A DNA stretch of 64,000 nt from a delta proteobacterium MLS_D (GTDB lineage: Bacteria > Desulfobacterota > Syntrophia > Syntrophales > UBA2210). The notes beneath the pieces are model-generated. The model was given only the letters and a program-made list of their open reading frames with translations. It was not told where the DNA came from and did no database searches. The DNA lies in NCBI GenBank assembly GCA_002030015.1, contig LQBH01000013.1:1-64000 (forward strand), written 5' to 3'. Of this stretch, positions 7,401 through 37,601 are shown piece by piece (positions within the stretch are counted from its first letter, which is position 1; each line of letters opens with the position of its first letter). Both the position numbers and the translations under genes were made by a program.

Positions 7401-8507
7401 GATAATTTCGGCGGCGATCCGGGCAATGTCACCATCTTCGGCGAGTCCGCCGGCGGGCACAGCGTGCTGTCGCTGATGGCGTCTGAGGCGCAGGATGACG
7501 GTTTGTTCCATAAAGCCATCGTCCAGAGCGGTTCCTACAGTCCGGAGCAGACGGCTTTGGATACCGGGTTTTTTATTTTAGGAGAGCCCTTTGCCGATCT
7601 GGATGTAGAGATTCCCAGTGACGGTCCCTGCGGAGGAACCAATGATGCAGGTGAAATACGGACCTGTTTGAGAGGTTTGTCTGTTGAAGAGATCATGACT
7701 ACACAAAATGATGCTCCCGGCTGGGCCTGGTTTACACCTGTGTACGCAGAGGGTACATTCCTGCCACAGTCCATTAACGATGCCCTTGATTCGGACGAGG
7801 TTGCCGATATTCCCGTCATGATCGGCAGCAACCTGAACGAAGGAACGCTCTTCGCGGGGCTCTTTCTTCCCGATTTTAACCTGATGTATACTGAACCCGA
7901 CTATTATGACGGAGTGCGGGAGCTCCTGAATCCGACCGATGAAGAGGGAGGGGATGCTTTTGCAGATGCGGCAGCCGATTATTATCTCACCGTGGCGCCG
8001 GGCACGGATAACCTGTACCGAAACGCCTACAGCATGATCTGGACGGACGCGACCTTTACCGTCAATAACTTCGTACAGTGGATGCAGTTGAACGGCAGGG
8101 AACAACCGAATTACGCCTACTGGTTCACCGACGAGGACGCGCCGATCAATCCCACCTACGCGGAGCTTGGCGCTCTTTCGCCGCTGCTTGACTTTGGTGC
8201 ATACGGTCTGGGCGCCTCGCATTCGTTCGAAATCCAGTATGTCTTCGGATCCCTGCAGGATCAACCTGCCGCGACGGCGGGGCAGAAAGCCCTGTCCGAC
8301 AGGATAATCGCCTACTGGGCGAACTTTGCTAAACAGGGAGACCCCGGCACTGCCTGGTATCATATTGCGAGCGAGGAGTGCGCCGGCGACGGCGAGTGCA
8401 TCATGGCGCTTCACCCCGATGGAGATGCCATGGTCAGCTTTGACGATTTTGCTGAGGCGCACCATATTGAGTTCTGGATGGGATTGCTAGAACCAGAAGT
8501 AAGGTAG
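4476..8507 (+). CDS. Secreted double-domain type-B carboxylesterase
   Basis: Two carboxylesterase modules in one ORF (GVPYAKPPVGDLRWRPP..FGESGGGG and GIPYAAPPVGELRFAPP..FGESAGG), each preceded by a GLYYV..GYTDEDG module; N-terminal hydrophobic signal. Confidence 0.9.
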   Translation: MEQARKQLLTGLRYGAILAVLLLGLVSIVGTGGGDATPGGGSPPSSGVFVNSPVEGLYYVADPSGLEGYTDEDGTFDYEPGDTVDFYIGDLLLGSSDGKDLVTPVDIVPGAAGTADQAVTNIARFLQTLDDDGDLSNGIKITEETAESVSAAVPIDFDQSPDDFEADPNVAGLMAELGLILKTADEARENLNAGLQVRGVVETMYGLLRASGPTDDTWQWLGVPYAKPPVGDLRWRPPQAPDVWEGIREATAWGDQAAQNPKYQSGGEGGMSEDCLYLNITAPRDAEDLPVMVYFHGGGFTILTGNTLAFNNPESMPTKDVILITVNHRLGPFGYLAHPDLIAESAAESGYAGAGNYGQMDLVAALEWVRDNIEAFGGDPDDVTIFGESGGGGKVQHLLASPDAAGLFHKAIIQSGMYPLDTTSLEVACAGGLALQEELDVESLEDMREVPWEDIVSAAETAVVDLEVVEMPLSTLIGPNVDGGHLPKALIDATEEGDYIDVPLISGMNRDDIFMPATETTGGFGAPRLVEDMGFYADLFESDVYVYVFDHVMSGWAAEGGVAYHGVELVYLFNYPESAYSHHLLGLTGLPPGDPPPIDWSETDTEVADTMMTMWTNFAKTGDPDLGWEPYTSTVKEYLEVSQGGILTMRDPLTIDVFPHDGVLAHEGPMAGLYYVAAAPEGARDRYGYTDEDGAYVYFPGREITFYFGGPDGIEIGSGTAVASMGLDDISDEDMRVDALIFNALDTDNDPSNGTTFPGVDFPGDLEDFQADVTTFENDVGFAVNSGSIGALRTAIEDFRDVLQEAGVAVGTANIPDAVATTSGDIVGYEVPARMNVWKGIPYAAPPVGELRFAPPAVYEAEEGDIVIATRFGDKCIQDDGCGNEDCLYLNVFAPLEGDDLPVMVWIHGGALIQGSACNPGYDMPDLVHEDVIVVTINYRLNAFGFLPHPALEDPTGNFGLKDQVAALQWVQANIDNFGGDPGNVTIFGESAGGHSVLSLMASEAQDDGLFHKAIVQSGSYSPEQTALDTGFFILGEPFADLDVEIPSDGPCGGTNDAGEIRTCLRGLSVEEIMTTQNDAPGWAWFTPVYAEGTFLPQSINDALDSDEVADIPVMIGSNLNEGTLFAGLFLPDFNLMYTEPDYYDGVRELLNPTDEEGGDAFADAAADYYLTVAPGTDNLYRNAYSMIWTDATFTVNNFVQWMQLNGREQPNYAYWFTDEDAPINPTYAELGALSPLLDFGAYGLGASHSFEIQYVFGSLQDQPAATAGQKALSDRIIAYWANFAKQGDPGTAWYHIASEECAGDGECIMALHPDGDAMVSFDDFAEAHHIEFWMGLLEPEVR

Positions 8508-19228: not shown

Positions 19229-21142
19229 GTGGCTTCGGAAAAGGAAATCACATCAACGGAAAAGTTGCTTGACGTCATACGCGGCGCCGAGAAGCAGGAA
19301 AGCGGAGCGGCGGATGAAGTAAAGGCGCGGGAGTCGCGTGAATCTCTTTTGACGGGGCGTTTTGCCAGGCAGAAGGGTGTCACCGTCGGTATTGACATCG
19401 GCTACTCGAGAATCCGCTTCGTCACCGTGTCGCAGAGTTCCCACAAACGGTGGAAACTTCTTGACTACGCGAGCTCCGCCATTCCAGCCGACATAGAAAA
19501 GGGGACGCCCGCGTTCACGGCATTCCTCAAGGAAAGTCTTGCGAAATACTGTGGGCCTCCCGGGAAAGTCGATCTGTGGGCCATGATGTCGGCGGCGAAC
19601 GTTGAAGTCCGCAATTTCACTGTTCCCGTGGTGGCGAAAAAAGAGCTTGAAAATGTTGTTTTCTGGTCGGCGAAGAAGGAACTCGACTTCAGCGAGTCGG
19701 AGAGCGTTTTCGACTACGAAGTGCAGGGTAAGATCGTCGAAAGCGGCATCGAAAAGCTGGGGATTCTCTTTTACACCGTTCCCCGGAAAAACGTCGAGGA
19801 CACAAGAGGGCTTTTTGCCGCGGCAGGGTATCCCCTGGCGGGACTGACCATTGCCCCGATGGCCCTTCAGAATATTTTCAGGACCGACTGGGTGCCGGCC
19901 CATGATCGTACCATTGCGTCGTTGTATATCGGGCGAGGGTGGTCGCGGATCGATATTTTTTCGGACGGCAATCTTGTCATGACGCGGGGTATCAAGGCCG
20001 GTATCAACAGCATGGTGGAATCGCTGGTCGACGAATATCCCGCATGGCGGCAAAGCGTGGACCGGGAGTCGTCTCATGCGGACGTTCCTGAGTCGGGTGA
20101 TGCCGTACTCGAACTGAGTGGTAATGGGCCGGTGGAAGAAGCACCAAACCTTGACCAGGCCCGACAACTCATAGAGCTGCTCAGTCCCGACTCGAAGCCG
20201 GAAACAGAACTTGCCGAACAGTTCGGGCTGACCGGTGAAGCGATTTTCACCCTGATTAAGCCCGCCTTGGAGCGTCTTGTGCGCCAGGTGGAGCGGACCT
20301 TTGAACATTATGTTGTTAACATGGGTCGAGAAGCGATAAGCGCCATTTACCTGTCCACGGCCATGAACGTCTGCCCGCCCATGAGCGACTATATGGCAGG
20401 CCAGCTCGATATGTCGTGCGACATTCTTGACCCACTCGACCCGTCCCACCCCTGGGTAGAAGAAGTGACGGCGGAAGAAACCGTTTCCGAACGATCAGCC
20501 TATGTTCCCGTGCTCGGGGTGGCCCTTTCGCATCAATCACGTACGCTGAACCTGATTTATACACAGGAAGATCAAAAACAGCGCAAAAAATACATGTTGG
20601 CAAATTATGTCGCCCTGGCCGTCATCGGCGTGCTTTTGTTGAGCGGTCTTGGTTGGTATGCGTGGTGCGATCGGGTGGTTGCGGGCAAGCAGGACCGTGT
20701 CGCACGTCTCGAACAACAGGTACAAAAGGGTATAGAAATCACTGAAGAATCAGTCAGAAACATGGTGGGCGATCTCAAACTGGAGCGGGAACGCGCGCGG
20801 GAAATGCGTGATCGGTACCTGTCGGCGGCTGTTTTCGGCGAAGTGTCGTCAGTGACTCCTGAAAAGATAAAGTTGATGAACATCAGAGCTGCTTTGGACG
20901 ACATGCCTGCCGGTGAAAAGGGCGGTTCCTCACGGGCTCCCCAACGGAACATGCTGATCGACGGTTTCGTAACGGGTGTTTCCGACACGCTGGACGCCGA
21001 TCTGATCGATTATGTCATGAATATTCAGTCGTCGCCGCTTTTCGAGCGGGTGGTCATCAATGCAAAGGTTCCTGAAACGATAGAGGGGCGGGAGGTCCTT
21101 CGCTTCACCCTGACGGCTTCCATGGAGGTGCCTTCAACGTGA
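19229..21142 (+). CDS. PilM-PilN fusion-like pilus inner-membrane platform protein (MshI-like)
   Basis: VTVGIDIGYSRIRFVTVS actin-like PilM N-terminus; TM LANYVALAVIGVLLLSGLGWYAW; PilN-like C-terminus; GTG-type start region. Confidence 0.82.
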   Translation: MASEKEITSTEKLLDVIRGAEKQESGAADEVKARESRESLLTGRFARQKGVTVGIDIGYSRIRFVTVSQSSHKRWKLLDYASSAIPADIEKGTPAFTAFLKESLAKYCGPPGKVDLWAMMSAANVEVRNFTVPVVAKKELENVVFWSAKKELDFSESESVFDYEVQGKIVESGIEKLGILFYTVPRKNVEDTRGLFAAAGYPLAGLTIAPMALQNIFRTDWVPAHDRTIASLYIGRGWSRIDIFSDGNLVMTRGIKAGINSMVESLVDEYPAWRQSVDRESSHADVPESGDAVLELSGNGPVEEAPNLDQARQLIELLSPDSKPETELAEQFGLTGEAIFTLIKPALERLVRQVERTFEHYVVNMGREAISAIYLSTAMNVCPPMSDYMAGQLDMSCDILDPLDPSHPWVEEVTAEETVSERSAYVPVLGVALSHQSRTLNLIYTQEDQKQRKKYMLANYVALAVIGVLLLSGLGWYAWCDRVVAGKQDRVARLEQQVQKGIEITEESVRNMVGDLKLERERAREMRDRYLSAAVFGEVSSVTPEKIKLMNIRAALDDMPAGEKGGSSRAPQRNMLIDGFVTGVSDTLDADLIDYVMNIQSSPLFERVVINAKVPETIEGREVLRFTLTASMEVPST

Positions 21143-21690
21143 TCAGCAGGAATGTTCAAAAAGTTGAATCGAGAAGCGGTATTTTTCTGATACTATTTCT
21201 CGGATTTCTGGTGCTCGTGCTGTTTTTCTTCCTATGGATCCGGCCACTAACGGCGATGTCTGAGAGGCTCGACAGGCGGGAGATGGAACTCAAGCTTCAC
21301 TATGAAAAACAGCAGCGCCTCGCGCCGGTGTATCAGCGTTTGGCAAATCGTGAGTTTCCTGCCGCTCTGGAGTCTCTGGAGGTTCCCGAAAGGGGCCCTC
21401 TGCCGGAGGTGGAGATTGCTTCCATTATTCCCTATTTCAGGATGATGGCACGGGATTCGGGACTCGTTATGCAGTCGGTGAATCCCCAGCTTGCCACCCT
21501 GGAAACGACGCCTGAATTTCTTGCCGTCGATGTCGAGATGGCAGGTAATTACCTGGCGTTCAGGGATTTTATTTTTGCGCTGGCAAAACTTCCTTACCTG
21601 GGCGGTATCGAAAAGATTTCCGTGCAGCAGGTGGGAAAGGGGGCCGATGACAAGGAGATTTCAATGAAACTCTGGCTCATCATCGGCTGA
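21139..21690 (+). CDS. PilO/GspM/MshJ-like protein
   Basis: Short N-terminus, single TM, coiled coil, position after PilM/N and before the secretin. Confidence 0.7.
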   Translation: MISRNVQKVESRSGIFLILFLGFLVLVLFFFLWIRPLTAMSERLDRREMELKLHYEKQQRLAPVYQRLANREFPAALESLEVPERGPLPEVEIASIIPYFRMMARDSGLVMQSVNPQLATLETTPEFLAVDVEMAGNYLAFRDFIFALAKLPYLGGIEKISVQQVGKGADDKEISMKLWLIIG

Positions 21691-21735
21691 TAAGCGGGAA
21701 CTAGTGCATCCAATTTCCTGAAAAGGTTCCGGACA

Positions 21736-22248
21736 TTGAAGAATATTAGCAAACGAGAAAAAATTATTCTGGCCGTCGTGGGAGTTGTTCTTCTATATGG
21801 TCTTTTTGATATTTTCATACTGCAGGGGGGTACACACAATCCGCCGACGGCCGGTCCGGTGAACGTGGAACAGCAGCTGAGGGAGACGGATGAGCTTGTC
21901 GTCTCCGCCACGTCCGCACTCAATGAAAGCGAACTTGCCACCGTCGATGTCTATATCATTGAGAGGGCAGAAAGAGCATGGCCGCGGGATCCATTTTTTG
22001 TCGGGATGCCCACGGAACGCATTGAGACGGCTGAGGGCGATAAAGCGCTTCGCGTGACCTTTACCTATTCGGGATTCATAGAGATGGGAGCAGCACAGAT
22101 GGCTATAATAAACGGTGTCGATTACCAGGTTGGAGAGGATCTTGAGATACCCGGTTACGTTCTGCGCAGCATAAGTCCTCAACAGGTCGTCATTGAGCAC
22201 AAGGAACTACGGCAGCGTGTTACCGTACCCTTCAGGGAGGATTATTAG
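21736..22248 (+). CDS. Small bitopic protein in PilP/MshK position
   Basis: Single N-terminal TM; C-terminal INGVDYQVGEDLEIPGYVLRSISPQQVVIEHKELRQRVTVPF resembles GspC/PilP/MshK pilot domains; TTG start. Confidence 0.65.
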   Translation: MKNISKREKIILAVVGVVLLYGLFDIFILQGGTHNPPTAGPVNVEQQLRETDELVVSATSALNESELATVDVYIIERAERAWPRDPFFVGMPTERIETAEGDKALRVTFTYSGFIEMGAAQMAIINGVDYQVGEDLEIPGYVLRSISPQQVVIEHKELRQRVTVPFREDY

Positions 22249-22250
22249 AA

Positions 22251-23888
22251 ATGACAGCAGGGAGGCCGGCATACAAAGGCTTTCAACTGAAAGCAGCGGA
22301 TGGGAAATGTAAAACGGGGGTAATTGCCGTTCTCGCGGTCTGCGTATCATTACTTTTCTTATGTGCGGGATGCGGACCGAAAAAGGAACTGGCGAAGGAT
22401 CCCTTCTTTGAAGAGTGGGATCTCAAAGCTGAACAGAGTGAGGGAAAATCGCCGAAGGCACGCGAACGGGTTCACGCCATTCCCGGTGACCCTTCGGAAT
22501 CGATCATGGAAGAGGCCGAGCAGCTCAAGAAAATGGATGAAAAGGATCTTCCACGAATGAAGGTGACCCTCAAAATGAGAAACGCCGATGTTCCCACGGT
22601 TCTTCGGGCGCTGGCGCGGGCGGCCGACCAGAACATCCTGATGAGAACGGAAGTAACGGGGACGGTGAGCGTCGATTTCGAAGATGTTCCATGGGACGAG
22701 GCCTTTGTGAGCATCCTCCGTTCCCGCGGGTTGAGTTACCTCTGGGAGGGCGATATCATTCGCGTGGCGACTTTCGAGTGCCTCGAAAACGATCTCAAGT
22801 GGCAGGATATTCGTGAAAAACGCATACAGCAGCAGATTATGCAGAGCCGTATGGCGCCGCTCCATACCATGGCAATCCCCGTGGACTATGCCGATGCGAA
22901 AAAACTTAGAGAAAACCTGATTGAATTCCTGACAAAAAAGGAAGAGGGCGAGCCCTACGGTTCTATTCGAGTGAACGAACACACCAATTCGCTGATTGTT
23001 CAGGCGACGCGCGCCGATCTCGAACGCATCGTCCCGCTGATCGACAAGATGGATCAGCCTACGGCCCAGATCCGTATCGAGGCCACGATAGTCGAAACGA
23101 CAAGCGACATGGCGCGGGATCTTGGCGTTCGGTGGGGAGGTCTCTACCGAAACGTTGCAGGCAGCAGGGATTACTGGATCACCCCCGGCGGCACGGGTGG
23201 GACCACGCCGTCAGATCCGGCGAGTGGCGGATATACGCCGACCGACGGCAGCTCCCGGGGGCTGAGCGGCCAGGGCATGGGCGTTAATTTCCCGGCGAGT
23301 TCAAGCGCCATGCAAGCGGCCGGCGGTTTCGGATCGCTGGGTCTCATGTACGGAACGATCGGGGGCAGTATCCTTGAACTGCAACTTCAGGCGTTGCAGA
23401 GCGAGGGGAAATTGAACATTCTTTCCCGGCCTTCGATCACGACGCTGGACAACCAGATGGCCTTTACGGAAAACGGGCAAAGAGTTCCCTTCGTGACCAT
23501 CGACGAGGACGGTGACCAGACGGTGGAATTCGAAGACGCGGTGCTCCGGCTGGAAATCACGCCTCACGTTATTGATGATGACACCATGAAAATGAAAATC
23601 CTCATCAAGAAGGACGAAGTGGATTTTAGCGTTGATGTCAGGGGTAACCCCGGCATCATCAAGAAACAGACCGACACTACCCTGATCGTCAACAACGGCG
23701 AAACGATTGTCATTTCGGGCCTGAGTAAACAACAGAACCGGAACAGCGATGCGGGTGTTCCCTGGTTGAATGAAATTCCCGTTCTGGGCTGGCTGTTTAA
23801 AAGCCAGGGACGAAGCCAGTCGATGGAAGAAGTGTTGATCTTCATCACGCCGCGCATATTGGAAACTGAGGGGGGCGCCGCCGGTTGA
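22251..23888 (+). CDS. Type IV pilus/MSHA secretin (PilQ/MshL-like)
   Basis: Lipoprotein-like N-terminus; STN-type and secretin domains; SRPSITTLDNQMAFTENGQRVPF; VPWLNEIPVLGWLFKS. Confidence 0.9.
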   Translation: MTAGRPAYKGFQLKAADGKCKTGVIAVLAVCVSLLFLCAGCGPKKELAKDPFFEEWDLKAEQSEGKSPKARERVHAIPGDPSESIMEEAEQLKKMDEKDLPRMKVTLKMRNADVPTVLRALARAADQNILMRTEVTGTVSVDFEDVPWDEAFVSILRSRGLSYLWEGDIIRVATFECLENDLKWQDIREKRIQQQIMQSRMAPLHTMAIPVDYADAKKLRENLIEFLTKKEEGEPYGSIRVNEHTNSLIVQATRADLERIVPLIDKMDQPTAQIRIEATIVETTSDMARDLGVRWGGLYRNVAGSRDYWITPGGTGGTTPSDPASGGYTPTDGSSRGLSGQGMGVNFPASSSAMQAAGGFGSLGLMYGTIGGSILELQLQALQSEGKLNILSRPSITTLDNQMAFTENGQRVPFVTIDEDGDQTVEFEDAVLRLEITPHVIDDDTMKMKILIKKDEVDFSVDVRGNPGIIKKQTDTTLIVNNGETIVISGLSKQQNRNSDAGVPWLNEIPVLGWLFKSQGRSQSMEEVLIFITPRILETEGGAAG

Positions 23889-23932
23889 GGTGACGGAGAA
23901 AGGTCGACGCGGAAGCGCAGAGATCAAGGGCC

Positions 23933-25666
23933 ATGGAATATTATCGAATTCTTAACCTGACCAGAGAGCCCTTTTCCAGCTCACCGGAACCGGATTTTTT
24001 CTATGAATCCCGGCAGCACGTGGAGTGCCTGCAGAAGCTGGAACTGGCACTGAGGCTTCGCCGGGGGTTAAGTGTCATCATTGGGCACGTGGGCGCCGGA
24101 AAGACGACTCTGTCGCGCCAGCTTATACGGAAATTCGCTTCGGATCCCGAAGTGGAAACTCACCTCATGCTCGATCCCCATTTCAGTACGGAAATGGAAT
24201 TTCTGGCATACGTGGCGGGGCTTTTCGGAGTCGCCGGAGATGACGATGGTTCGCCCGCCAGTGCATGGCAGCTGCGGGAGCGCATCAAGAACTATCTCTT
24301 TCAACAGGCTGTTGAGCGGGGCAGACTGGTGGTACTTATCATAGATGAGGGACAGAAAATTCCCGATTTTGCCATGGAAAGTCTCCGTGAATTTCTGAAC
24401 TATGAAACAAATGAACAGAAGCTCCTGCAAATAGCCATATTCGGCCAGGAGGAATTCCGTGAGAATCTCAAGTGTCATCCCGGTTTCGCCGACAGGGTGA
24501 ACCTGACATATTACTTGGGACCGCTCAACTATAAGGATACCTGTGCCATGGTTCACTTCCGTATTCATAAGGCCGCGGATGTGAACCGGGATGATGTGTC
24601 GATACGTTTTACCGGTCCGGCCCTGCGGGTCATTTACCGTGAAACGGGTGGGTACCCACGCAGAATCGTTCTACTGTGTCACCAGGTTCTGCTGGCCATG
24701 ATCATCAAGAACAAGACAAAAGTGAACCGGCGACTGGTGAAATCAGTCATTTACGGGATGAAGGATCACTTCCGCAGATCACCGCTCCTCACGCCGGCGA
24801 GGGTTTCACTTGCGGTGATACTCGTCGTCATCGCGGGGGCGGGCGTGTTTTACGGTTTGTACGGACACCGCTTTTCTCCCCCTGACGGGGGGTTTTTATT
24901 GAATTCCCGGGACAGGGCGGCGGGTGACGGTGCCAGAAATTCTGATTATGCCAGTCCGGGATCAATCGCCCTGATAGCTCAGGGTGATGAAGAAATGGAA
25001 CATTCATTTACCGCGGTGGAGGAATCGGACCGGAATGCAGGCGATGATTTCCCGGTGGCATATGCCGGTGAGCGGCATTCATCAGTGGAAGACGTGATCA
25101 GCAACGAAACTGATGATACCAAGAATATTGAGGATAAAGAAACGGTCACTTCGCGTGACGATGACCGTTCAGTAGATGCCGGGCAGTTAGAACCACCCGC
25201 TGTGCTGGGAACCGTTCGTGTCGTCAGGAATCAGTTTGTGTGCCGCATGTTGCGCGATGTTTACGGCGTCTGTAACGACAGTCTGAAAAAGGCCTTCAGT
25301 AAAGAAAACCCTCATATAGAAAACCTCGATCGCGTTATAGAAGGGCAGCTTGTTACGATGCCGGCCCTGCCCGACCGGCGATCCGACGTATATCGAAACG
25401 GTAGCTGGGTCAGCGTCGGCGAGGAGTTGTCACTGGATGACGCCTACAAACATCGTCGGATGTATGGACGATCTGCTTCGGAACTGCGGATTCTTCCCTA
25501 CTGGACGGCGGAAGAGGGGTTCCGCTTTTTGGTAATACTCGGTCGGCGATTTGACGACACTGAAGATGCTCAAAGGGCTTTGTCAAGGCTTTCTCCCGAA
25601 ATGGCCGGCGAAGCCAGGGTAGTTGAAACCTGGCCGGAAAACGCAGTGTTCTTCGGGAACTGGTAG
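23933..25666 (+). CDS. ExeA/GspA/MshM-like AAA ATPase with C-terminal extracytoplasmic region
   Basis: MEYYRILNLTREPFSSSPEPDFFYES..VIIGHVGAGKTTLSRQL; TM near residue 295; LysM-like and SPOR-like C-terminal segments. Confidence 0.85.
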   Translation: MEYYRILNLTREPFSSSPEPDFFYESRQHVECLQKLELALRLRRGLSVIIGHVGAGKTTLSRQLIRKFASDPEVETHLMLDPHFSTEMEFLAYVAGLFGVAGDDDGSPASAWQLRERIKNYLFQQAVERGRLVVLIIDEGQKIPDFAMESLREFLNYETNEQKLLQIAIFGQEEFRENLKCHPGFADRVNLTYYLGPLNYKDTCAMVHFRIHKAADVNRDDVSIRFTGPALRVIYRETGGYPRRIVLLCHQVLLAMIIKNKTKVNRRLVKSVIYGMKDHFRRSPLLTPARVSLAVILVVIAGAGVFYGLYGHRFSPPDGGFLLNSRDRAAGDGARNSDYASPGSIALIAQGDEEMEHSFTAVEESDRNAGDDFPVAYAGERHSSVEDVISNETDDTKNIEDKETVTSRDDDRSVDAGQLEPPAVLGTVRVVRNQFVCRMLRDVYGVCNDSLKKAFSKENPHIENLDRVIEGQLVTMPALPDRRSDVYRNGSWVSVGEELSLDDAYKHRRMYGRSASELRILPYWTAEEGFRFLVILGRRFDDTEDAQRALSRLSPEMAGEARVVETWPENAVFFGNW

Positions 25667-25758
25667 CTGCTCGCCGGCGCTCGGCGTTTTTATTGGCGTG
25701 TTCGCCGGATTCGGCAAAAACAATTATTGTTAAAGGCACAGAGCAAAGGGGACGGAAG

Positions 25759-27477
25759 GTGAGAATTCGCAAACGGTTGGGCGAGATGCTGATGGAGGCG
25801 GGGCTCATCGATGATGAGCAGCTCAGGCGGGCCCTGGCGGGACAAAAAAAGGCACACCTCAAGTTGGGCCAATACCTTATAAAAGAAAATATCCTGACAG
25901 AGGAGCAGATTATAGAGCAAATCAGCCTCCAGCTGAAAATTCCAAAGTATGATCCGGCTTCCTATCCTGTCGATACAAGCCTGGCGACGCTTATGCCCTT
26001 CGATATGGCGCAGAAAAACCAGGTCGTACCGGTGCGAAAACGGTTCAACCTGCTTACTGTTGCCATGGTTGATCCCATGGACATGACCGCCATTGATGCC
26101 GTTGAAGATCATACAAAACTTGAAGTGGAAGCGGTGGTTTGCTCAGAACGGGAATTTGGGGAATTGTTGAGCGCAACTTACGGCACGCAGTCAGGCATGA
26201 GTGAGTTGATGGAAACCATGGGCGATATCACGGTCGATATGCAGCCCGAAGAACAGCAGGCGGAAGCCGATCTCAAGGTAAGCTCGCTGCAGAACATGGC
26301 GGAAGAGGCGCCCGTCATCCGCCTGGTGAACTCAATTATAGCCCAGGCCGTTAGAGAAAAAGCCAGCGACGTTCATATCAGCCCGGAGGAAAAATCCGTA
26401 TCGCTGCGTTTTCGAATCGACGGAAACCTGGTGGAAATGCCGGCACCTCCAAAAGCCATGGTGTTGCCCATAATATCGCGCATCAAAATTCTTTCCCGCA
26501 TGGACATAGCCATGTCCCGAATTCCACAGGACGGCCGTTTCACCGTCAAGATCGATAACAAGGAAGTCAATGTGAGGGCGTCGGTTCTGCCAACCATATA
26601 TGGCGAGAACCTGGTCTTGCGTCTTCTCGACATGGGGGCCGGGGTATACTCACTCGAACGTCTCGGCATGTCTCCCGAGGATCAGAAAAAAATAATTCGG
26701 GCGAGTAACAGTCCCTATGGCATGATTCTCAGCACGGGTCCGACCGGTAGCGGCAAGAGCACGAGTCTTTACTCAATATTGAAGCTGGTGGCTTCTCCCG
26801 AAATAAATGTTATCACGCTGGAAGATCCCGTGGAGTATCGCGTGAGCGGCATCCGCCAGGTGCAGTTGAACAGGAAAGCGGGGATGACCTTCGCCAGCGG
26901 CCTTCGGTCAATTCTTCGCCAGGATCCCGATGTGATTATGATTGGTGAGATACGAGACGGAGAAACGGCCGGAATTGCGACCCAGGCGGCACTGACAGGT
27001 CACCGCGTTCTCAGCACTGTTCACACGAATGATTCGGCGGGTGCGGTTACGCGTCTCATCGACATGGGGATAGAACCATTTCTTGTTTCTACGGTGCTCC
27101 TTGTGTCGTTCGCCCAGCGTCTACTGAGAACGGTCTGCCCTTACTGCAAGGAGCCTTACCGGCCCCCGGAAGAAGCTCTCGCGGCGTGGGGGCTGGACAA
27201 GGTGGAGAATCCCAACTTTATGCGGGGGCGAGGCTGCGAAAAATGTATGAACACCGGTTATCGCGGCCGGACCGGTGTTTTTGAAGTGCTTTTGATCGAC
27301 GATGATATTCAGGAAATGGTTCTTCACGGCAGCTCAGCCCAGGAAATCACCCGCGCAGCCGTGGCGGCGGGAAAACTTCGCACGCTGAAAAAAGATGCCG
27401 CCGACAAAGTGGCCAGGGGTATTACGACCCTGGAGGAAGCGGCGGCCAAGGTAATGAACGTCAATGAACAACTGTAG
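25759..27477 (+). CDS. GspE/PilB/MshE-type assembly ATPase with MshEN domain
   Basis: RLGEMLMEAGLIDDEQLRRALAGQ MshEN motif; GPTGSGKSTSLYSIL Walker A; CX2C..CX2C zinc motif; GTG start proposed (ORF opens at 25693). Confidence 0.93.
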   Translation: MRIRKRLGEMLMEAGLIDDEQLRRALAGQKKAHLKLGQYLIKENILTEEQIIEQISLQLKIPKYDPASYPVDTSLATLMPFDMAQKNQVVPVRKRFNLLTVAMVDPMDMTAIDAVEDHTKLEVEAVVCSEREFGELLSATYGTQSGMSELMETMGDITVDMQPEEQQAEADLKVSSLQNMAEEAPVIRLVNSIIAQAVREKASDVHISPEEKSVSLRFRIDGNLVEMPAPPKAMVLPIISRIKILSRMDIAMSRIPQDGRFTVKIDNKEVNVRASVLPTIYGENLVLRLLDMGAGVYSLERLGMSPEDQKKIIRASNSPYGMILSTGPTGSGKSTSLYSILKLVASPEINVITLEDPVEYRVSGIRQVQLNRKAGMTFASGLRSILRQDPDVIMIGEIRDGETAGIATQAALTGHRVLSTVHTNDSAGAVTRLIDMGIEPFLVSTVLLVSFAQRLLRTVCPYCKEPYRPPEEALAAWGLDKVENPNFMRGRGCEKCMNTGYRGRTGVFEVLLIDDDIQEMVLHGSSAQEITRAAVAAGKLRTLKKDAADKVARGITTLEEAAAKVMNVNEQL

Positions 27478-27574
27478 CTAGGAGCGGATGATTATTCGGG
27501 GACGGTGTGAAAATAGCAACGGTGCGTTCCGGCCGGTTATCCATTTTTCGATACCATATTAATCGGGAGAAATT

Positions 27575-28795
27575 ATGCCCACCTATTCGTATAAAGCAAT
27601 CAGCCAGAGTGGTTCTGCAGTGTCGGGAGTAATAGAGGCCGATTCCGTCAAAACCGCTGAACTTATGTTGAACAACCAGGGGTTTATTCCTTCAAAGGTC
27701 GAGGAAGCCCGGAAGGGAGGCGCCGATTCATTCTTCCAGAAGATAGTTCTGAGCCTGACGCCGGTGAAGATGGAAGAAATAATTCTCATGACGAGACAGC
27801 TCCGGACGATGCTGGCTGCGGGGCTTTCCATGATACAGATGCTTGATATTCTCGAGAACCAGTTACAGAACGAACGATTGAAAAATATGATAGCCGCGAT
27901 TTCCATGGACATCAAAACGGGCAGCTCCCTTACAGAGGCGTTCCGTAAACACGAGAAGATTCTCTCGCCGTTGTACGTGAACATGCTGCATGCGGGAGAG
28001 ACAAGCGGGACGTTGACGGAAGTACTGGAACGCCTTATCTATCTCCTGGAACACGAGCACAAAGTAAAATCCGATATTAAGGGAGCGCTCCAGTATCCCA
28101 AAATCGTCCTGGGTGCATTGGGAATCGCCTTTTTTGTCCTCCTCACGTTCGTCATTCCCACTTTTGTTGGCATCTTCGCATCCGCCGGACTCGAACTTCC
28201 CCTGCCCACGAAAATAGCCCTGGGACTGTATCACCTGTTGAGCAATTACTGGTATGTTTTCATCATCGTTATCATAGCCGGTATAGTTGCGTACCGTCAG
28301 TACATGAAAACAACTGCGGGTCGGCTTGTTCGCGATTCTCTGTTATTGCGTGTTCCCGTTATCGGGTCCCTGATGCAGAAGGCCGCGATGAGTCGTTTCG
28401 CCAGTATCTTTTCGATATTGCAGGCAAGCGGTATATCGGTGCTTGTTTCTTTGGATATACTCGTAGGGACCATCGGCAACGAGGCGATCGCCCGGGAGTT
28501 TCGTCGAATAAAGTCGTTACTGGAAGAAGGAAGAGGATTGTCGAGTCCGCTCCGTTCGGCTAAATACTTTACGCCCATGGTGGTCGACATGGTAGCCGTG
28601 GGAGAGGAGACGGGCGCGCTCGACGAGATGCTGCACCAGGTAGCCGTTCATTACGACGACGAAGTGGAATTCGCGGTAAAGCGGCTTTCCGCTGCGCTCG
28701 GCCCCATACTTATCGTCGGCCTCGCTGTCGTAGTTGGGTTTTTCGCCCTGGCCATCTTTCTGCCCATGTGGGATCTGACGAAAGTTGTCCGGTAA
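27575..28795 (+). CDS. GspF/PilC/MshG inner membrane platform protein
   Basis: MPTYSYKAISQSGSAVSGVIEADS; GspF repeats; TM pattern. Confidence 0.93.
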   Translation: MPTYSYKAISQSGSAVSGVIEADSVKTAELMLNNQGFIPSKVEEARKGGADSFFQKIVLSLTPVKMEEIILMTRQLRTMLAAGLSMIQMLDILENQLQNERLKNMIAAISMDIKTGSSLTEAFRKHEKILSPLYVNMLHAGETSGTLTEVLERLIYLLEHEHKVKSDIKGALQYPKIVLGALGIAFFVLLTFVIPTFVGIFASAGLELPLPTKIALGLYHLLSNYWYVFIIVIIAGIVAYRQYMKTTAGRLVRDSLLLRVPVIGSLMQKAAMSRFASIFSILQASGISVLVSLDILVGTIGNEAIAREFRRIKSLLEEGRGLSSPLRSAKYFTPMVVDMVAVGEETGALDEMLHQVAVHYDDEVEFAVKRLSAALGPILIVGLAVVVGFFALAIFLPMWDLTKVVR

Positions 28796-32265: not shown

Positions 32266-32955
32266 ATGTATGATTTACCGAGCGGAATAGTGAGAGGTAA
32301 CGAAGAATTGAAGTGTGACGACAAACACGGCGAATACGACGGCCTTGCCCGGTTCATGCGAGCGACGCCGAAGCTGAATCCTCCTGGAAACTTTACGCAC
32401 AATGTGATGGAGCGTGTCTCACGAGAAGTTTCACCTGTGAATAGGATCGTTCAGCTTCGATTTGTGCGGTTTTTAATGTCACCAATCGGGCCGTTACGTG
32501 ACGGCTCTGGTCAATGTTCATTCTGCTTTGTGTTGACCGGCTTGTTCTACTTTTTACTCGGGATAGGCATGCTGGTGGGACTCAAACTGTCGGATACATT
32601 TCCGGGCCAGTGGATTCGACTGGTTCCATGGTTCAATATAGGTGCCGCTTTCTGGCTTCTGGTACTTGGAGTGATTGTTGTCAACGGAGGCAGGTGGTCT
32701 TGGGTGGGGACGAAGGCGGGGACAATTCTCTTCGTTTTCTTTTTTATTTCCGGTACCGTAGTTTGTGCGAAGGCAAACGGTACACCCACCATGTATATCT
32801 TCGCGGCCATGTCCTGGTTATCTGCTTGCGTGGGGGTGCTGCTCTATTACCAGGTTGTGGCCTTTTCTGACCCTGAGATCGTTGTCGATAATAATACCGG
32901 AGTGACAACAAACGGTAGCAAGTTTCGGAGGGCTGAGGGAACGCCATGGCATTGA
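32266..32955 (+). CDS. Hypothetical multi-TM membrane protein
   Basis: Soluble N-terminus (LNPPGNFTHNVMERV) plus about four TM segments; overlaps the next pilin gene. Confidence 0.7.
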   Translation: MYDLPSGIVRGNEELKCDDKHGEYDGLARFMRATPKLNPPGNFTHNVMERVSREVSPVNRIVQLRFVRFLMSPIGPLRDGSGQCSFCFVLTGLFYFLLGIGMLVGLKLSDTFPGQWIRLVPWFNIGAAFWLLVLGVIVVNGGRWSWVGTKAGTILFVFFFISGTVVCAKANGTPTMYIFAAMSWLSACVGVLLYYQVVAFSDPEIVVDNNTGVTTNGSKFRRAEGTPWH

Positions 32956-33413
32956 GAAAACGCAGGAAAGCGGACGGCTTCACCATGATCGAAGTTATTG
33001 CCGTGCTTTTAATAATCGGCATAACAGCGGCTATCGCCGTTGCGAGAATAGGCGACACGAGCATTTACGACGTACACTCACAGGTTGAGGTCATTAAGAG
33101 CCATCTTCGTTACGCCCAGTCTCGGGCCATGGCAACTGGTAAAGAATGGGGAGTCAAGGTTACATCAGAAACAACCTATTATTTGTTCGACGGTGCCGAC
33201 TCTGATACGCCCGTGCGCTTTTTGGGCGAGAACGATCCGACCGTCGATCTTGCGGCCAAGCATTCAGGTGTGACTATTGCGCCGGATTCTCAAACGGTTA
33301 CCTTTGACGCATACGGCAGTCCCGGCGATACAACGCTGACACTTACCGTTACGGGTGCCGGCGGGCGGAGCATGGATATTACGGTAACAAAAAACACGGG
33401 CTATATACCGTAA
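32946..33413 (+). CDS. Type IV prepilin-like protein (GspH/MshC-like)
   Basis: KADG^FTMIEVIAVLLIIGITAAIAVARIG. Confidence 0.88.
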   Translation: MALRKRRKADGFTMIEVIAVLLIIGITAAIAVARIGDTSIYDVHSQVEVIKSHLRYAQSRAMATGKEWGVKVTSETTYYLFDGADSDTPVRFLGENDPTVDLAAKHSGVTIAPDSQTVTFDAYGSPGDTTLTLTVTGAGGRSMDITVTKNTGYIP

Positions 33414-33455: not shown

Positions 33456-33962
33456 ATGAGCGTGCAAACCGGATCGTTTTCACATGAATATGATAATGAC
33501 AGGGCGCTGCCGGTTTCAACAGGTTTTTTGCGGAAGTGTTCCGGTTCCGGGGGATTTACACTCATAGAGGTTATTGTTTCACTTGTTGTCGCCGCCCTCC
33601 TGGGGACCCTGCTGGTTAACTTCATAAGCGGTACCGTCGCCAAGAGTGTGCAGCCGGTTCTACAGGCACAGCAAGGGTCTTATCTTTACAGCATTATGGA
33701 GAATATGACCGCGGATTACAACAATTTGTTCCTTGCCGATGACGACCCGCTCGATGAATTCCAGGACAGGGTGGGGGACGAAGACACTACGCAGACCCGG
33801 TACTCTGAAGACGGTCATGAGTATACGGTTGTTCGCAACAGGCGTATATCATTTGACGGCGCAGGTACAACGGTTACGGAACAGACCGACAGCAGCGGGA
33901 AAATACTGAAAGTGACAATCAACTATCGGGGACTTTCTCTGACATCACTTTTTTCGGAGTAA
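33456..33962 (+). CDS. Type IV prepilin-like protein (GspI/MshD-like)
   Basis: GSGG^FTLIEVIVSLVVAALLGTLLVNF with long leader. Confidence 0.87.
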   Translation: MSVQTGSFSHEYDNDRALPVSTGFLRKCSGSGGFTLIEVIVSLVVAALLGTLLVNFISGTVAKSVQPVLQAQQGSYLYSIMENMTADYNNLFLADDDPLDEFQDRVGDEDTTQTRYSEDGHEYTVVRNRRISFDGAGTTVTEQTDSSGKILKVTINYRGLSLTSLFSE

Positions 33963-33968
33963 AGCATC

Positions 33969-36900
33969 ATGGAAACTGCGCAAAGGGATCAAGTGGCGTA
34001 CCGGCGATCATGCTTGGAGGAACACTCATTTATGGGAAACAAACACTCAAGCACAAGGAATGCTCGAGGATTTACTCTTATTGAAATTGTCGTAGTCTTG
34101 GTCCTTGCGGGAATTCTGGCAGCTATGGCCGGGTTCGGAATTGTTCAGGCCGTCCAGGGATATATGTTCACCCGGGAAAATGCCGCCATTACCGAGAAAG
34201 CCCAGTTGGCCATGTCGAGAATCACTCGTGAAATTGTGGAAATGACGGACCTGGATGATGATGCTGATTCGACGTCACTTCCGGTTTACAGTCCCCGGGG
34301 AAGTCATGTCCTGGGATTCAGCAGCGAAGCCGACGCCGTGATGATAGATGATGACATTCTTATCGATAATGTTGTCGTTTTTGATCTGGCGTATCATCTG
34401 GCCGATGGAACATCCCAGGCGGAACTTGAGCAAATCGACCTGGGGCTCTTGTCGGCAATTGATATAACGCTGGAAGTAGAACGCTCCGATGGCAGCGGCA
34501 CTATGCTTTTTACCAACCGTGTCGCTCCCCGCAACATTGGATTGAAGCGAGTCGCCGGTGATCCATCAGCGCCTGCCAGCGCACCTCCGGCGGCGCCAAA
34601 CTACAATATCTGTTTTGTGGCGACTGCCGCCTGGGGCGACGGTGCCCACCCCATGGTGGTCCTGCTCAGGGATTTTCGTGATCACTTTCTCATGACCTGG
34701 AGCGGAGGACGACGACTTGTTGACCTCTATTACCTCCACGGAGCGGCGGCGGCGAATCTCATACAAGACAGACCGGCGGCCATGTGGGTTGTGCGGGTCG
34801 TGCTCGCACCCGTGGCGGCAGTGACCTTCATGGTACTCTATGCGCCTTTGATTATTCCCTTCATTCTGTTTGTGTCGGTGATTCTGACGATGACTTTGAT
34901 CGCCGCGGTCCGGCGAAAGACTGGAAAAGCAACGAGTCTGTCGCCGGCAGGACAGAAAGGCGGCATCCTCATCGGGCTGATCGTAACGATGGTAATCATG
35001 TCAGCCCTCGGCGCAGCCGTGCTTCCTCTTTTCTCCTCTTCCCAGATGACGCAGGTCTATGCCGACGCAAGCCGCAAGACCTATTTTCTGGCCGAGTCAG
35101 GTTACCGTTTCGCGGCGAGTGAATTTCTCAACGCCGCAAGCGAATCCGCGAAGTTGACGACGTTGAACGACATGGACGGGAGGACATACAATCTGCTGGA
35201 CAACAACGGTTCCTTTAACCTCCGCGTGTATCCCTACTGGTTCAAGGCCCAAGCCGCTTCAGGCGGCGACACAGCAGTTACAGCAACCGTTTACGGTACG
35301 TTGCCTCAGGAGTTTGATGGATCATTTGCGGGAGGAGAAATCAGTGTCGGCAACAAAATACTGTCCTACGACAACGGCAGTGGATCGGGATCAACGGTTA
35401 CGTTTAACCTTTCATCTGATCTTGACTCGGCAATTTCCGACGATGCGGACATTGTGACCGTCGCACGACCTTCAAGTTCTCAGACCTTTTCCAAAGGGGA
35501 CAACATTGTTCTCGATTCAACCGGTACGGGCCGCTTCCCAGAGGTGAACGGTATTTTTATATTGCAGCCCTCCGTTCCCGGTTTTGCCGGATCAGTGTTC
35601 ATGTACGAGAAGCGCTCCGGGAATGTTCTTCAGGGCATCGCGCTGGCCGATACGGAGGAAAACGCCTCGTGGACCAGTAACGTGAGTGTCGACGAGAACA
35701 CGGCGGTGGTTCTCGACAAATATCTCAAGCTTTCTTCCACCGGGACAATCGGCGGTTATTCCCGTGAAATTATGTACAATGTTCCGATAGGATGGGTTGC
35801 AGGCGGAGAAGGGGGCAAATTCAGAAAAGAACAGTATCACGATACATTCGGGTCCGATGCAAACTGGTTTACCGATGAGTCTCTGGGGGGGCACAGCGTC
35901 TCCGGAGGCGTCATGCAGGTAACCGAGATGCAAACCACTCCGCCGGATTCCGCTCCCGGCGGCGTGTTAGGCGCTATTGTAAGCTGGCTCAGCGGGGCAG
36001 GCGGCCAGTGGGCCGCGGTGGCCTTTGACTGGAGCAATGTCAACACAAACCTGGCACAGTCCTGGATGGACGCGGGAGGCTGCCTGAGTTATGACATCCA
36101 GGCGAAGGTCAATACTCCGGCACCCTATTTTTTTGCCGGCCTGGGATTTCGGATGAGGAATAACGAGGACGACTCAGACCTGTATACCTATGGGGTATCC
36201 TTCATTCGGCAGAGGCAGATACGAAACTGGTTCTTTTTTAGTCCAAGCAACTGGTCGGACAATGACGGTATCAATCCAGCCTTGCGCCCCTTTTCATCCT
36301 ACTCGTCAGGTCAGTTTATAGCAGGATCCGTATTTTTGGGGACCCAGGCTCGTTACAGCGATCCCGGCATTATTCTCTGGCAGCGTACGGGGCCTCCCGA
36401 TGGTCCGGGAACCTTCCAGCTTCTTGGTCACAAGACAATTGTCCCGGGTGACGGACTGACAACGGGAACAGGACCGGACCTTCGTCTCAATCCCTGGTCC
36501 ACCCTGATGGTTCGCCTGACAGAGGGGTATGAGCTGGAGTTCAACCAGGGCAGGGTGGATGAAAACGGAAGACATCTGAAGTACGGTGACATGATCACCA
36601 GTGAAGACGGAAGCAAAAAGGCCCGCATCATCGGAACGCCCATTACCACCACGAGCTGGGGAGTGAGTAATTCTTTTGATGGAGCGGGAACAATGCTTCT
36701 CACCAACGTGGCAGGCGGCGGTTTTTCCAGTAATGATAACCTTTACCTCTCCGGCGGTGATGCGGTAGCATATGCCCGTGCCGATTCGGACCAGGCCGCG
36801 AGCAAGACGAACTACATCATGGTTTATTTCAGCGACGATAAGGAGCCGGTAGCGGGAAATACTGTACAAACCGATAATACACGCATCGGGAATCAATGGG

Positions 36901-37601
36901 AACACGTAAACTGGCCGCCCGACGACTGGACCGACCGGGCGGGCGGTCTTCCCACGGCAACACCGCCGGGGAATGATTATTTTACGTTGGTTCAATGGTT
37001 TCCGGGTCCTCAGATAGTGCCGTCGATCTCAAGAGAAAACTGGAGCACCGGAAACGGATGGTCCATCTCGGGCGATGAATTGAGAAAAGACTCCAATGGG
37101 ACGGAAACTGCACAGCCTCGAGACAGCCTGTTTATTATGACCGGAACGACATACGATGTTACCTTCACCGTTTCGAATCACACGAGGGGCGGTTTCAACT
37201 ACACTCTCGGAGGTGTGAGCGGGAGCGCTGTGTCTGCAAACGGCACATATACAACTGTCATCACGGCGACAAGCTCGGGCAACCTCGTTTTTACGCCTAC
37301 GACGAATAACAGCAGATTTAGAATTACGAATATATCAGTGATCGGTCGGGACACGCTGAACAGGGGGGAGGCGAACTACGTGTCGGCCCTGGGCGGCACT
37401 GACTTTTATCAGGCGGTCGTTAAGACAGGCGCGCTTTTGTCTCCCGATTGGGATGGTGAAATTACGGATTTCCTGGATCGTGGCGATCATATCGCTCTTT
37501 TTACTTCCAGCAGTGCCGGAACGCTGACTCAGTACGATGACTTTGGCATTCAATTGGACCAGAAGGCCGGAACCGGTTTCCTGCCGCCGATACAGCAATG
37601 A
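33969..37601 (+). CDS. Fused prepilin - CFI-box/TM - second pilin-like segment - large C-terminal region (MshO-MshP-MshQ-like fusion)
   Basis: NARG^FTLIEIVVVLVLAG; CFVATAAWGDGAHPMVVLLRDFRDHFLMTWSGGRRLVDLYY; AGQKG^GILIGLIVTMVIMSALGAAVLPLFSSS; one uninterrupted 1210-codon frame. Confidence 0.8.
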   Translation: METAQRDQVAYRRSCLEEHSFMGNKHSSTRNARGFTLIEIVVVLVLAGILAAMAGFGIVQAVQGYMFTRENAAITEKAQLAMSRITREIVEMTDLDDDADSTSLPVYSPRGSHVLGFSSEADAVMIDDDILIDNVVVFDLAYHLADGTSQAELEQIDLGLLSAIDITLEVERSDGSGTMLFTNRVAPRNIGLKRVAGDPSAPASAPPAAPNYNICFVATAAWGDGAHPMVVLLRDFRDHFLMTWSGGRRLVDLYYLHGAAAANLIQDRPAAMWVVRVVLAPVAAVTFMVLYAPLIIPFILFVSVILTMTLIAAVRRKTGKATSLSPAGQKGGILIGLIVTMVIMSALGAAVLPLFSSSQMTQVYADASRKTYFLAESGYRFAASEFLNAASESAKLTTLNDMDGRTYNLLDNNGSFNLRVYPYWFKAQAASGGDTAVTATVYGTLPQEFDGSFAGGEISVGNKILSYDNGSGSGSTVTFNLSSDLDSAISDDADIVTVARPSSSQTFSKGDNIVLDSTGTGRFPEVNGIFILQPSVPGFAGSVFMYEKRSGNVLQGIALADTEENASWTSNVSVDENTAVVLDKYLKLSSTGTIGGYSREIMYNVPIGWVAGGEGGKFRKEQYHDTFGSDANWFTDESLGGHSVSGGVMQVTEMQTTPPDSAPGGVLGAIVSWLSGAGGQWAAVAFDWSNVNTNLAQSWMDAGGCLSYDIQAKVNTPAPYFFAGLGFRMRNNEDDSDLYTYGVSFIRQRQIRNWFFFSPSNWSDNDGINPALRPFSSYSSGQFIAGSVFLGTQARYSDPGIILWQRTGPPDGPGTFQLLGHKTIVPGDGLTTGTGPDLRLNPWSTLMVRLTEGYELEFNQGRVDENGRHLKYGDMITSEDGSKKARIIGTPITTTSWGVSNSFDGAGTMLLTNVAGGGFSSNDNLYLSGGDAVAYARADSDQAASKTNYIMVYFSDDKEPVAGNTVQTDNTRIGNQWEHVNWPPDDWTDRAGGLPTATPPGNDYFTLVQWFPGPQIVPSISRENWSTGNGWSISGDELRKDSNGTETAQPRDSLFIMTGTTYDVTFTVSNHTRGGFNYTLGGVSGSAVSANGTYTTVITATSSGNLVFTPTTNNSRFRITNISVIGRDTLNRGEANYVSALGGTDFYQAVVKTGALLSPDWDGEITDFLDRGDHIALFTSSSAGTLTQYDDFGIQLDQKAGTGFLPPIQQ

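Follow-up and report, generated by a model that had tools for sequence, protein, structure and literature searches.

The 64,000-nucleotide stretch analyzed here (positions 1 to 64,000 of contig LQBH01000013.1 from delta proteobacterium MLS_D, order Syntrophales; hereafter the window) contains, at 33969-37601 on the forward strand, a gene with two prepilin signals in one open reading frame (ORF), joined by a CFI box, hydrophobic helices and a basic tail. We propose, with a probability of roughly 0.75, that this gene encodes a two-pilin polyprotein: the CFI segment would bring the chain back into the cytoplasm, where the internal signal would reinsert it and prepilin peptidase would free the second pilin. 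The fused architecture is conserved among related genomes, has a pre-fusion counterpart and recurs with a different prepilin, GspG. Below, G, C, L and f numbers are our handles for genomes, contigs, loci and families, and ^ marks a predicted cleavage site.

One frame contains two prepilin signals and an internal CFI box

The frame runs without interruption through 1210 codons. Because GGAGG precedes ATG 34032 (Met22) by about 11 nt, Met22 is probably the better start, which would leave a 13-residue leader, MGNKHSSTRNARG, ahead of the first prepilin motif, G34^F35-TLIE. This motif scores above the cut-offs of both PF07963 (29.2 bits against 21.2) and TIGR02532 (24.7 against 16.3). The CFI box matches the CFI-box-CTERM model NF041770 with 63.1 bits against a cut-off of 40, and departs from the C-terminal location of that family in being internal, with 880 residues downstream. 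After two hydrophobic stretches and RRKTGK, a second motif, GQKG331^GILIGLIVTMVIM (QKG^GILIGL), opens a protein of about 880 residues. The original prediction had read an unbroken frame, an N-terminal prepilin motif, a CFI-box-like block and a second pilin-like motif from the letters of the window, and each of these holds up in the results given here. The parts of the gene are as follows.

33969 to 37601, +: whole fusion ORF, 1210 amino acids by open-frame translation; likely 1189 from ATG 34032
34032 to 34070, +: leader of pilin 1, predicted cleavage after G34, from the sequence and the PF07963 and TIGR02532 matches
34071 to 34590, +: GspJ-like pilin 1, about residues 35-207, from the AlphaFold2 (AF2) model and Foldseek matches to XcpW/GspJ
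34611 to 34814, +: CFI box, residues 215-282, with invariant Cys215; NF041770
34773 to 34841, +: hydrophobic helix H1 (AF2), residues 269-291, a marginal membrane span with a conserved Pro and usually Arg at its start
34851 to 34919, +: hydrophobic helix H2 (AF2), residues 295-317, likely an out-to-in membrane span
34911 to 34961, +: basic tail RRKTGKATSLSPAGQKG, residues 315-331, putative leader of pilin 2 with predicted cut after G331, from charge and Gly/Lys/Arg conservation; no in-frame start codon in the tail
34962 to 35130, +: N-terminal helix of pilin 2 (AF2), residues 332-387, without Glu5; the same motif opens standalone relatives
35131 to 37598, +: body of the large GspK-position protein, mostly beta domains, with the conserved C-terminus FLPPIQQ; AF2 pLDDT 81 and carbohydrate-binding module (CBM)-like beta-sandwich matches

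In the AF2 model (24 sequences, pLDDT 68), the first half consists of a pilin helix followed by a beta domain. The eleven best Protein Data Bank matches in Foldseek are all pseudopilin structures containing GspJ, XcpW or EpsJ (including 5bw0, 5vtm, 3nje, 6utu and 3cfi; probability 0.97-1.0), although E is no better than about 2e-3; for 5bw0, 5vtm and 3nje, the probability is 0.99-1.0 and E 2e-3 to 2e-2. The XcpW match reaches probability 1.0 at E about 2e-3, while the NCBIfam gspJ model TIGR01711 gives 11 bits against a cut-off of 64.85. As modeled, the first half appears GspJ-like by fold. It has a short basic leader ending in Gly, Glu5, a hydrophobic helix and a beta domain, the features of a class III (type IV) prepilin.

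Relatives are fused, split or close to fusion

Relatives occur in three states: fused, split and INTERMEDIATE. A single frame joins the CFI box to the second pilin in 24 of the 155 genomes of the order, in five families. Two more genomes, G011 and G016, have the fusion with a shortened linker, in which the CFV.xAGF motif, a single hydrophobic span and KRHG are retained. The fusion is also found in G170 and G189, which lie outside the order, and in metagenome-assembled genomes labeled Smithella, Syntrophaceae, Desulfobacteraceae and others. The genome of the window itself has a paralogous fusion (G000:C27; L033:4227-7844) of a GspJ-like half (J) and a GspK-position half (K) around a CFI box; no CFI-box protein other than these two fusions was found in it.

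A missed stop or frameshift near 34900-34970 in what is a draft genome of 70 contigs would make the fusion an artefact of assembly or annotation. We give this next to no credence and reject it: the frame is likewise unbroken in an orthologue of 90% identity (L036/L052), in the paralogue and in more than 20 other independent genomes, including the complete chromosome at L071 and, for the GspG version described below, the single-contig genome G168, and purifying selection extends across the junction.

The split relatives that the original prediction had asked after do exist, as a genuine state with two start codons and not as errors that would undo the fusion. In them, each pilin has a gene to itself; the two genes lie side by side, and the second encodes a leader of its own (SQKG^ALMIGL or GQNG^TVLLGL, for instance). 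At L075 (G153), pilin 1 ends in a CFI box, a hydrophobic segment and FKRRSP*, and its TGA stop overlaps the ATG of MRARSFPLPSPGKG^SILLGL; this locus shows the state immediately before fusion. A tree of the J and K parts implies four or more switches between the fused and split states, and is compatible both with a single fusion followed by splits and with several fusions.

The arrangement recurs with GspG

A search across the phylum found delta-60-repeat proteins in which a CFI box is followed in frame by a complete GspG, in G269, G321 and G168 (family f35) and in G629 and G666 (family f119). These are single ORFs of 872-979 amino acids, with delta_60_rpt, CFI_box_CTERM and GspG all above the NCBIfam cut-offs; G321 is cut by a contig end. 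The GspG part covers positions 1-134 or 2-134 of the 134 in TIGR01710, and is the only above-cut-off GspG in each of the five genomes. At L207 and L208, the 45 codons before G^FTLIE contain no ATG, GTG or TTG; at L170, there is no start codon in the 22 codons before the GspG site. Split sister genes are found in G426 and G652, where the CFI protein ends ..RSRPLQ or ..TMQKE and GspG follows. The five fusions counted are those confirmed by direct translation; open-frame lengths had suggested many more, several of which proved on translation to be separate GspG genes.

The GspG fusion arose independently of the J-K fusion. Since a major pseudopilin needs a free, processed N-terminus to polymerize, release of GspG from the fused chain seems nearly forced. 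These fusions are our strongest argument for actual use of an internal prepilin site that follows a CFI box.

The predicted internal cleavage site is conserved in a drifting tail

Lacking Glu5 and a pilin-model match, the second signal might by itself be chance. Two observations lift it above chance: standalone relatives of the second half open with the same motif, [KR]xG^[SAGT]xLIxLI, and 24 fused homologues conserve the site. Of these 24 aligned sequences, 23 have Gly at -1 and one (L071) has Ala; at -2, 22 have Arg or Lys; no other tail column exceeds 75% of one residue. The -1 Gly stands out since the surrounding tail is loosely constrained, with dN/dS up to about 0.95 vs 0.06-0.28 for the CFI box (five close pairs). 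Residue 332 is also Gly, so a cut after 331 or 332 is formally possible; the alignment favors 331. Known prepilin leaders have 6-26 residues, the last of which, Gly, is reported to be absolutely critical (PMC4471445). The tails of the fusions, at 15-24 residues, fall within this range, and with the Gly and the helix that follows, the second half has the leader and helix features of a class III prepilin. A prepilin peptidase gene is present in the genome (G000:C12).

The same observations bear on whether the fusion is cut at all. An uncleaved chain would have three membrane spans and form one giant tip protein, its internal Gly a relic. A permanent tether is conceivable, given that pilins J and K lie next to each other at the tip of the pseudopilus (PMC4471445, PMC5207764), and conservation of the CFI box would also fit a structural role. 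We nevertheless consider this unlikely: the -1 Gly is kept while the tail drifts, repeated change between fused and split states is easier if both yield the same products, and an uncut GspG on a secreted protein of 680-840 residues could not polymerize.

Pilin 2 might instead be made by internal translation initiation, with the continuous frame a by-product, and some fusions (for example L054 and L065) do have an in-frame ATG, GTG or TTG in the last 25 codons. However, 8 of the 24 have no start there, L207 and L208 have none within 45 codons, and the nearest starts in the window, at -23 and -21, lie inside H2. In all 24 fusions, moreover, the Gly lies at a constant distance of 114-116 residues from the CFI Cys. 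Absence of in-frame starts rules this out as a general explanation, and we hold it to be highly improbable here.

The linker is predicted to return the chain to the cytoplasm

CFI segments had been described in the original prediction as normally C-terminal, which agrees with the retrieved loci: among 107 distinct CFI boxes, 75 of the 100 with closed ends are C-terminal, and the median distance from Cys to stop is 106 amino acids. When more than 135 residues follow the Cys (n = 30), the extension leads to a prepilin-type site in 27 and to a Sec-like signal peptide in two (L102, L107), and in one (L093) is a short tail only; the count of 27 is not unbiased, because some of the loci came from a search whose query included the second pilin.

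The two Sec-like cases differ in their domains. L102:4175-7183 (Oligoflexia) has a metalloprotease-like domain (HEMGH), a CFI box, a basic tail, an apparent Sec signal peptide in frame (MIITFFIFMSGSSNSYA) and, at the C-terminus, a barrel-like domain; translation might also begin at an internal ATG. L107:2407-4236 (Deltaproteobacterial) has a fibronectin-like part, a CFI box, RRRRAGR, a Sec-like signal (..FFLVHGPAAA^ESP) and then one more domain, which has no Pfam match.

We estimated free energies of membrane insertion (dG) from simple hydrophobicity, using an approximate form of a published residue scale, so that the values are approximate. Averaged over the 24 homologues, the two pilin helices give -1.2 and -1.3, H2 -0.67, H1 +0.57 and the amphipathic part of the CFI box +6.2. 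The tail after the last hydrophobic helix has net positive charge in 24 of 24 fusions, and the shortened linkers of G011 and G016, as well as L208, have one predicted membrane span only. From these features and the export signal that follows 29 of 30 extended CFI boxes, we infer that the internal G^ is cytoplasmic, that is, that the linker crosses the membrane an odd number of times; an odd number is also favored because related CTERM tags keep their basic end in the cytoplasm (PMC11980579). The suggestion in the original prediction that the segment returns the chain to the cytoplasm is thus borne out as far as the tail and the single-span linkers go, and the topology of the full linker is partly ambiguous, depending on whether H1 spans.

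In the opposite topology, H1 and H2 would form a hairpin that leaves the tail and the internal Gly outside the cytoplasm, and the second signal would not be used by the peptidase. AF2 does show two separate helices of about 23 residues, and H1 is marginal, not clearly non-membrane. Against this stand the uniformly positive tails, the single-span linkers, the cytoplasmic basic ends of MYXO-CTERM and related tags (PMC11980579) and the fact that each long post-CFI extension holding a new domain starts with an export signal. We judge the hairpin improbable.

A proposed processing pathway and the points against it

In the pathway that we propose, pilin 1 would insert N-in/C-out by its own class III signal and be cut after G34 at the cytoplasmic face. 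The CFI-box segment would lie in the periplasm, and the following hydrophobic segment would recross the membrane, placing the RRKTGK tail in the cytoplasm. This tail would serve as leader of the second class III signal, so that pilin 2 too would insert N-in/C-out, and the same prepilin peptidase would cut the in-out, out-in, in-out chain after G331. Equal amounts of two neighboring tip subunits should result. As for pilin 1, we would guess, by analogy with MYXO-CTERM and myxosortase, that a CTERM-type sorting protease frees it from the linker at the CFI motif; the Cys motif seems a natural place for this cut because it is kept even in the shortened linkers.

Several points weigh against this pathway. 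Cleavage at G331 is deduced from sequence, and the second signal has neither Glu5 nor a match to any pilin model. Alone among the fusions, L071 (CP070652.1) has no Gly at its internal site, SNNNA^NVLVGL, which would mean that Ala can take its place or that cutting has been lost in this copy. Only a very short turn separates the two hydrophobic helices of the full linker, and if both span, G331 would be periplasmic; H1, marginal as a span, is the weakest step of the topology argument. The AF2 model of the linker region has medium confidence only (pLDDT 68) and does not represent the membrane. Finally, a CFI segment left in place would anchor pilin 1 at its C-terminus and bar it from entering a filament, and no CFI-cutting enzyme was identified.

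More generally, the CFI box, membrane segment and basic tail might form a re-entry linker that lets one chain hold several exported proteins, each with its own prepilin or Sec signal, with cuts on both membrane faces, a CTERM-type sorting protease acting at the CFI motif and prepilin or signal peptidase acting at the internal signal. We advance this tentatively, at somewhat less than even odds.

The second half and its locus

The GspK family of tip subunits is large, lacks Glu5 and is encoded by the last gene of its cluster (PMC5207764). The second half likewise has about 880 amino acids, never has Glu at position 5 in the 24 fusions and comes last. It matched no GspK model in NCBIfam or Pfam, and GspK was not among the fold matches listed, so it is GspK-like in position only. 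Foldseek gave weak matches to CBM-type beta-sandwiches (probability 1.0, target TM about 0.4-0.5, E about 0.02-0.04); its long alignments to unrelated multidomain beta proteins (TM <=0.14) were treated as uninformative. Such domains in the model would be consistent with an adhesin role. A CBM-like stretch at about residues 1025-1130 (the 36990-37400 region of the window) is missing in several homologues, among them the paralogue on G000:C27, which retain the C-terminal FLPPIQQ.

The fusion ORF closes a row of minor pilins that adjoins an MSHA-type machine:

32946 to 33413, +: minor pilin in the GspH position (PF12019 GspH, 34.6 bits; PF07963)
33456 to 33962, +: minor pilin in the GspI position (PF07963; gene order conserved)
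19229 to 28795, +: MSHA-type pilus machine, comprising PilM_2, PilO, secretin, an AAA protein, an MshE-like ATPase (MshEN) and a PilC/GspF-like protein

The locus thus has MshE with MshEN, a secretin, PilM/PilO, a PilC-like protein and minor pilins. The original prediction had compared the fusion with the separate MshO, MshP and MshQ genes of MSHA clusters; the MSHA-type locus stands, and the first half appears GspJ-like by fold, with the second in the GspK position of an H-I-J-K order. No major pilin MshA was seen beside the fusion in the window; no genome-wide search was made.

Upstream of the minor pilins lies a membrane protein gene (32266-32955; compare L033:3472-4032), whose homologue in relatives comes after a gene for an extracytoplasmic function (ECF)-type sigma factor. 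This order suggests that the minor pilins are under sigma/anti-sigma control. The sigma gene is absent at the window locus and present beside the paralogous cluster on C27. Elsewhere in the window, a 1343-amino-acid ORF at 4476-8507 apparently comprises two tandem carboxylesterase-like copies.

Implications and comparison with known systems

The known role of prepilin peptidase is to remove a short leader from the N-terminus of its substrate. If our proposal is correct, the enzyme also cuts inside a polytopic chain, and pilins can be delivered as polyproteins, with the 1:1 ratio of neighboring tip subunits fixed and their insertion coupled. In the GspG version, a type II secretion system would obtain its major pseudopilin from the same precursor as a secreted surface protein. 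For the CFI box, to which the papers searched assign no function, the proposal would provide a testable topology, with its end in the cytoplasm. Text searches of open-access literature for pilin polyproteins, the CFI box and the Bradyrhizobium polyprotein FbcH returned nothing relevant; membrane polyproteins, CTERM tags and class III signals are, taken singly, already known.

Among known systems, minor pilins of the GspH-I-J-K or MshB-O-P-Q type share the gene order, the apparent XcpW/GspJ fold of the J half and a large, last K half without Glu5. Unlike in those systems, J and K here are one polypeptide, and GspK was not among the sequence-model or listed fold matches of the second half. CFI-box-CTERM proteins (NF041770) have the same invariant Cys motif, hydrophobic segment and basic end, whereas the box here is internal. 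MYXO-CTERM/myxosortase and rhombosortase tags follow a similar tripartite plan, with Cys (in MYXO), a membrane helix and an Arg-rich cytoplasmic end (PMC11980579), but those tags are terminal, with nothing after them.

The cytochrome b/c1 precursor FbcH of Bradyrhizobium is a single chain with an internal export signal, released by signal peptidase. FbcH and the two-pilin precursor proposed here would thus both be membrane polyproteins cut at an internal signal, FbcH at the periplasmic face by type I signal peptidase, the pilin precursor at the cytoplasmic face by prepilin peptidase.

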